A stretch of DNA of 64,000 nt from Gammaproteobacteria bacterium (GTDB lineage Bacteria; Pseudomonadota; Gammaproteobacteria; Ga0077536), in contig JADLGE010000083.1 of assembly GCA_020849475.1 (NCBI GenBank), positions 1 to 64,000 of the forward strand, read 5' to 3'. The translations under genes and the position numbers were made by a program. Below, one piece after another: positions 63,099 through 63,839 of this stretch (position 1 is its first letter; every line of letters starts with the position of its first letter). The notes under the pieces were generated by a model, which was not told the origin of the DNA, did no database searches, and saw only the letters and a program-made list of their open reading frames with translations.

Positions 63099-63245
63099 GG
63101 CCGGTGGGGCGTCGCGGTTCTCCATCCTTGGCCATGGCGGTCGCTAACGGCTGACGGTCTGCCGCGTCACGGCGCATGCTCGAACTGTCGGGCCGCGGCC
63201 CGGGTTTCGCCCTGCATGGGCACTATCTTCTGGAGGTGAATTGAC

Positions 63246-63839
63246 ATGACATCATCGAAATCACGCGAAGCCTGGGTCGAGATCCCGGGCCCGGCGAGCC
63301 ACAGTGAGCAGGCCGGCCCCTATGACTTCGGCTTCGTGCCGGCCATGGGACGGCTGCTGGCGGCTCATCCGCTCATCGGCCCGGCCTTCATGGCGCTCTA
63401 TGGCGCCGTCATGTTCGCCCCAGACGGCGCACTCAGCCGCGGTGAGCGTGAATTCGTCGCAGGCGTGGCCGCCGCTGCGCAGGGCTGCACCTACTGAACC
63501 GAGTCCCATACAGAATTCCTCCGTGTCGAGGGAGAAAGCCTGGAACTCGCGCAAGCCATCAAGCATCGGCGTTGGCGTGAAGTGGTCGACCTGACCGCCC
63601 GCCAGCGTGCGCTGGGTGAGCTCGCGGAAAAACTGTCGGCGACGCCGACCCGCATGCTGGAGCGTGACTGGCAGCCGTTGCGTGATCTCGGGTTCGATGA
63701 CCGGGCGTGCCTGGAAGTCGCGCACATCGTCGGTATCTTCAACCACCTCACGCGGCTTGCCGACGGACTGGGGCTCGAGCTCGACGCCGCCACGCGGGCC
63801 GCTGCCGAGTCGGGTGTGGCGCTGCGACGTCCGGACTGA
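63246..63839 (+). CDS. AhpD/peroxidase-related (carboxymuconolactone decarboxylase-like) protein with in-frame TGA (candidate Sec) at 63495-63497
   Basis: Same frame before and after TGA; ...GEREFVAGVAAAAQGCTY[U]TESHTEFLRVEGESLELAQAIKHRRW...LTARQRALGELAEKLSATPTRMLERDWQPLRDLGFDDRACLEVAHIVGIFNHLTRLADGLGLELD; CxxUxxxH matches CxxCxxxH. Confidence 0.8.
63511..63545 (+). promoter_or_regulatory. Candidate bacterial SECIS stem-loop
   Basis: UUCCUC (63516-63521) - CGUGUC loop - GAGGGA (63528-63533); loop begins 24 nt after UGA, G at second loop position; possible lower CAG/CUG helix. Confidence 0.55.

Follow-up and report, generated by a model that had tools for sequence, protein, structure and literature searches.

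A shifted-register SECIS candidate in an AhpD-like selenoprotein gene of a gammaproteobacterium

An AhpD-like gene (carboxymuconolactone decarboxylase fold) in the window, by which we mean the whole stretch of 64,000 nucleotides that was analysed, contains an in-frame UGA that almost certainly encodes selenocysteine and is followed by a hairpin different from the one carried by all known orthologues of the gene. Computed directly, the hairpin of the family is lost in the window, a new hairpin is present, and the apical loop of the latter is shared with three other selenoprotein genes of the host, all unrelated. There are good grounds to regard the new hairpin as a genuine bacterial SECIS (bSECIS) in a shifted register, its loop built from the CGUG of the former 3' arm, and we are slightly more confident still that it functions as the SECIS of this gene. 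The kind of signal is already known; the novelty lies in its position, in the register shift and in the host-type loop.

Table 1. Positions of the features discussed, in the window and elsewhere in the host genome.
Feature	Position	Strand	Basis or remarks
Shine-Dalgarno sequence GGAGGTGAA, strong	63232..63240	+	5' of ATG 63246; read directly from the sequence
AhpD-like selenoprotein gene	63246..63839	+	197 codons, UGA taken as Sec; CxxU motif C-T-Y-U
In-frame UGA, predicted selenocysteine codon (residue 84)	63495..63497	+	Orthologues, two distant paralogues, downstream coding constraint
Lower helix, 5' arm CGAGU.CCA (tentative)	63500..63508	+	Pairs with 63541-63549 in the minimum-energy fold of UGA+57 nt, -17.0 kcal/mol
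Putative remnant of ancestral family SECIS, CATACAGA-ATT-CCTCCGTG	63507..63525	+	Codon-by-codon comparison; orthologues CACGCAGA-GTT-TCTGCGTG
Apical hairpin, probable bSECIS, UUCCUC[CGUGUC]GAGGGA	63516..63533	+	Pairing probability 0.93; apical loop common to three other genes
Lower helix, 3' arm UGG.ACUCG (tentative)	63541..63549	+	Minimum-energy fold
Peroxiredoxin (Prx) candidate, FPKAFTGGU-TAQC	L120:13086, contig C48	+	Candidate SECIS AUCACUC[CGUGA]GAGUGGU, 21 nt, extended stem
PrdB-like candidate, U-PVC	L154:4053, contig C74	+	Candidate SECIS ACCAGAC[CGUGU]GUCUGGU, 17 nt
WAxxUGC-type redoxin candidate, WGSYUGC	L166:1986, contig C3	+	Candidate SECIS CUUGUC[CGUGU]GGCAGG, 20 nt
UGSC-motif candidate	L112:3488	+	Of the three UGSC candidates, two scored, both above the NF041046 cut-off
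UGSC-motif candidate	L112:17944	-	
UGSC-motif candidate	L087:12967	-	No clear hairpin under the bSECIS model
selA-selB operon, selC and selD close by	L032:7348-10667, L001:1501-1596, L067 (contig C26)		

The selenocysteine codon and the integrity of the gene

The open frame extends from ATG 63246 to TGA 63837 and is interrupted by the UGA at residue 84. With this UGA read through, the window protein scored 116.8 bits against TIGR01926 (cut-off 81.8) and 39.2 bits against PF02627 (CMD; cut-off 23), and the selenocysteine stands where CxxC has its second cysteine, which places the protein among the CxxU members of TIGR01926. It is not a member of NF041238, the AhpD-related (seleno)protein CFYUT, against which it scored 63.5 bits at a threshold of 175. 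The CxxU proteins of TIGR01926 are a catalogued selenoprotein family (PMC13188914), and AhpD-like CxxU selenoproteins were earliest reported from the Sargasso Sea (PMC1088965). Insertion of selenocysteine at the UGA would complete the CxxU redox site.

The TGA is present at the same codon in 31/31 orthologues, which are 51-67% identical to the window protein and reside in Binatia, Actinomycetota, Acidobacteriota, Myxococcota, a gammaproteobacterium and Latescibacterota. Identity to these orthologues amounts to 64-75% downstream of the TGA versus 54-63% upstream, the region 3' of the TGA is under purifying selection (pN/pS about 0.24-0.36), and the coding score based on codon usage is equal on both sides. 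Constraint and coding signal downstream of the TGA therefore argue that a full-length selenocysteine protein is made, despite the loss of the family hairpin. It could be held instead that the gene is decaying, its SECIS gone, so that translation ends at the UGA and yields only a fragment of 83 residues; the destruction in the window of a SECIS that every orthologue possesses would be in keeping with this, as would the occurrence of the gene in only one of the 36 genomes of the host's family. Decay is nevertheless highly improbable given that the 113 codons after the TGA are intact and as similar to the orthologues as just described, with pN well below pS and a full coding signal. Errors of assembly or sequencing, in the TGA itself or in the neighbouring differences, are more improbable again, to the point of being negligible: the assembly is a 137-contig draft, but 31 independent orthologues also have the TGA, and the differences in the hairpin region respect codons and are mostly synonymous.

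The host genome encodes the complete sel set on one contig (Table 1), namely selC, selD and the adjacent pair selA and selB, and selB was found in 30/36 genomes of the host's family. On that contig a beta-lactamase-like gene and an MsrA/MsrB-like gene intervene between the sel genes.

The window hairpin and the family hairpin

The initial annotation had described a 6-bp stem, UUCCUC/GAGGGA with one G-U pair, closing the loop CGUGUC 24 nt past the UGA, and both the coordinates and the fold were confirmed. The arms lie at 63516-63521 and 63528-63533 and enclose the loop at 63522-63527, whose second base is G as claimed, and the stem, with its one U-G pair, has a mean pairing probability of 0.93 in a fold of the UGA and 57 nt. 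The lower CAG/CUG helix (63511-63513/63540-63542) suggested as an extension was recovered in shorter folds only; with 57 nt, the helix CGAGU.CCA/UGG.ACUCG was predicted in its place, starting 2 nt past the UGA and not conserved.

The published bSECIS consensus comprises an apical loop of 3-9 nt on an upper stem of 4-16 bp (PMC13188914, Fig. 2A), a G at loop position 1 or 2 that is usually followed by G or U, a distance of 16-37 nt between UGA and loop, and a minimum free energy of -7.5 kcal/mol or lower (PMC13188914). With a 6-nt loop, a 6-bp stem, a second loop base G followed by U, a spacing of 24 nt and a host that encodes SelA, SelB, SelC and SelD, the window hairpin agrees with every published constraint; for the energy this holds with the extended fold, since the 50-nt element 63500-63549 reaches -16.3 kcal/mol and passes the threshold while the 18-nt core alone, at -5.8 kcal/mol, does not. 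No SECIS model of Rfam matched in a scan of the window. The folding energy of the region is ordinary (z = -0.84), and hairpins of 6 bp or more that have a G in loop positions 1-2 and lie at 16-37 nt are common by chance: 30% of synonymous recodings contain one, as do 23% of in-frame coding sites, and the requirement for G and then G or U lowers the rate to about 10%. With an ordinary energy and a chance rate of 10-30%, the fold alone is therefore insufficient to accept the window hairpin as a SECIS.

Structural conservation in TGA-containing homologues had been set as a test that could refute the hairpin, and here the outcome was negative: the window hairpin was present in 0/31 orthologues, with a pairing probability of 0.00 in all of them. 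It fails because the orthologues use another hairpin, CACGCAGA-GUU-UCUGCGUG, which has a pairing probability of 0.47-0.97 in them and 0.00 in the window, where it is broken; the window element is therefore probably a replacement, and not the conserved SECIS of the family. The underlying orthologue codons, CAC GCA GAG TTT CTG CGT G, are nearly frozen even at synonymous sites (CAC, GAG and CTG in 31/31, CGT in 30/31, GCA and TTT in 28/31). The window reads CAT ACA GAA TTC CTC CGT G, with five codons differing from the consensus, four of them synonymously. What is left of the family hairpin has three mismatched pairs and has lost the loop G, and its 3' end, CGTG, now lies inside the new loop.

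That the window hairpin took the place of an ancestral one is likely, and depends on the age of the family hairpin. Two TGA-containing AhpD-like paralogues, L050 and L052, both from the Latescibacterota genome of L027 and about 34% identical to the window protein, carry a family-type hairpin and the TGA at the same codon, and the hairpin of L052, ACGGAGA-GGA-UCUCCGU, contains a compensatory change from C-G to G-C. An in-frame TAA occurs within the matched stretch of L050. The family hairpin, being found also in these outgroup paralogues, is therefore old, and by parsimony, resting on the two of them, it would be ancestral. Their placement in the tree relies on long branches. Alternatively, nothing was replaced: the window gene may stem from an early branch that always had a CGUG-type SECIS, the other 31 sharing a derived hairpin. 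The protein tree gives no firm placement of the window and is compatible with it as sister to the 31 orthologues (p-AU 0.40), and the end branch of the window is long (0.62); the family hairpin of L050 and L052, which fall outside the clade, argues against such an early origin, which we hold to be unlikely. No closer relative with the window hairpin was found in the 36 genomes of the family, in 369 of the class, in viral contigs, in plasmids or, by peptide pattern, in 85,000 species genomes; the plasmid search returned only distant proteins (37%).

An apical loop shared within the host genome

Further selenoprotein genes were sought in the approximately 2.6 Mb of the 5.4-Mb genome that was read, as TGA codons flanked by coding signal up- and downstream and accompanied by a residue motif, without use of RNA structure. 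The search gave six candidates, a peroxiredoxin, a WAxxUGC redoxin, a PrdB-like protein and three UGSC proteins (Table 1), and the remainder of the genome may hold more. Two of the names are approximate, since the PrdB-like protein scored 102.6 bits against TIGR04483 (above noise, cut-off 300) and the WAxxUGC protein 258.6 bits against NF041054 (just under the cut-off of 300); for these two, which are below NCBIfam equivalog cut-offs, the position of the TGA and the motif served as evidence. The PrdB-like gene sits in an apparently non-clostridial genome. Formate dehydrogenases, considered as a second selenoprotein, gave matched stretches without TGA, and relatives of the other selenoproteins were not found in viral contigs.

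The C[CGUG..]G apex of the window hairpin recurs in three of these six genes, the PrdB-like, Prx and WAxxUGC genes, which are unrelated to one another. Defined by a C-G closing pair, a loop starting with CGUG, a stem of at least 6 bp and a distance of 16-37 nt from the UGA, the group comprises these three and the window gene. The window and Prx genes supplied the motif, which the WAxxUGC and PrdB-like genes, found later, then fitted; the probability that three out of six genes would have such a loop by chance is about 7e-8. No CGUG loop was seen in the three UGSC genes, of which one has the hairpin GUCGUGGA[GUG]UCCAUGAC at 19 nt and a second UGCA[GUU]UGCA. It is the recurrence of this apical loop in three unrelated selenoprotein genes of the host that leads us to accept the window hairpin, and together with the selenocysteine codon, the sel gene set and the bSECIS fit it lends support to the interpretation as a SECIS in the initial annotation.

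A CGUG loop closed by six or more base pairs appeared in 0.7% of free synonymous recodings of the window gene, and a CGUGN(1-2) loop so closed at 0.15% of 576,987 in-frame coding sites of the host genome. The CGTG bases, however, were already there in the ancestral 3' arm, so that the loop is more likely to arise by chance in the window: with CGT GTC held fixed, 9% of recodings formed a CGUG-loop stem of 6 bp or more, and 1.6% did so with a 6-nt loop. These rates bear on the possibility that the UGA does encode selenocysteine while the window hairpin has arisen by chance, in which case SelB would use either what remains of the decayed family hairpin or the register CUCC[GUGUCGAG]GGAG. Besides the inherited CGTG, such a reading can draw on the frequency of generic bSECIS-like hairpins at comparable sites, and no second sequence was found with the window hairpin in this gene, so that it shows no covariation. 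Neither substitute folds appreciably, however, the pairing probability being 0.00 for the family hairpin and 0.05 for the other register, and chance hardly accounts for a C[CGUGN]G apex common to three selenoprotein genes that are unrelated but reside in one genome. We consider a chance fold rather improbable, and return to the window hairpin as the probable SECIS of the gene.

Proposed mechanism and comparison with known elements

In bacteria, SelB and Sec-tRNA(Sec) bind the apical part of an in-frame hairpin past the UGA and deliver selenocysteine at the A site (PMC13188914). By analogy, host SelB with Sec-tRNA(Sec) would bind the C[CGUGUC]G apex as the ribosome reaches the UGA and deliver selenocysteine there, and the lower helix, if formed, would be melted by the approaching ribosome. 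The family hairpin, which lies 7 nt nearer the UGA and has a GUU loop, may have been dismantled by mostly synonymous changes, the new register taking over: the synonymous Phe-Leu changes TTT CTG to TTC CTC would have broken the old stem and formed the new 5' arm, which pairs with the Glu-Gly codons GAG GGA, and the CGUG of the old arm would thereby have shifted into the loop, giving a SECIS of a type present elsewhere in the host genome. Binding of SelB to the window hairpin is an inference, as is the view that the change fitted the gene to its host. None of the remaining 35 family genomes has the gene, which makes it attractive to suppose that it may have been acquired from elsewhere and then adapted to SelB of the host. 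As a tentative generalization, for which we would claim somewhat less than even chances, SECIS dialects may be host-specific and set by SelB, and a gene entering a new dialect would have its SECIS rewritten in place by a register shift, within coding constraint and with an old stem arm reused as the new loop, the window being an example.

Bacterial SECIS elements are reported to resemble each other poorly (PMC13188914). A host in which four unrelated genes have the same apical loop makes the loop specificity of its SelB directly testable. The probable replacement in the window of a hairpin kept by 31/31 orthologues likewise renders SECIS turnover within coding sequence testable. A SECIS search built on the family hairpin would miss the window gene, which is found by homology to its TGA-containing relatives.

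Compared with the SECIS of its orthologues, the window element belongs to the same gene and the same UGA codon and is likewise a downstream hairpin with G-U in the loop, but its loop is placed at 24 rather than 17 nt and its stem, UUCCUC-CGUGUC-GAGGGA, is in another register. With the elements of the PrdB-like, Prx and WAxxUGC genes it has in common the C-G closing pair and the CGUG at the start of the loop; the loops of those genes are 5 nt long (CGUGU or CGUGA) at spacings of 17-21 nt, whereas that of the window is 6 nt at the largest spacing of the set, on a stem shorter than those of Prx or the PrdB-like gene. With the bSECIS consensus model it shares the location inside the coding region, the size of loop and stem and the G-U from loop position 2, and differs in the folding energy of the apical core alone. 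In the SECIS elements of E. coli fdhF and fdnG, SelB recognises an apical G-U in a hairpin just 3' of the UGA, with a GGUC loop and a bulged U in the stem. The window hairpin resembles these elements in the apical G-U and in its location just downstream of the UGA, but its loop is CGUGUC and a bulge is not evident in its stem.
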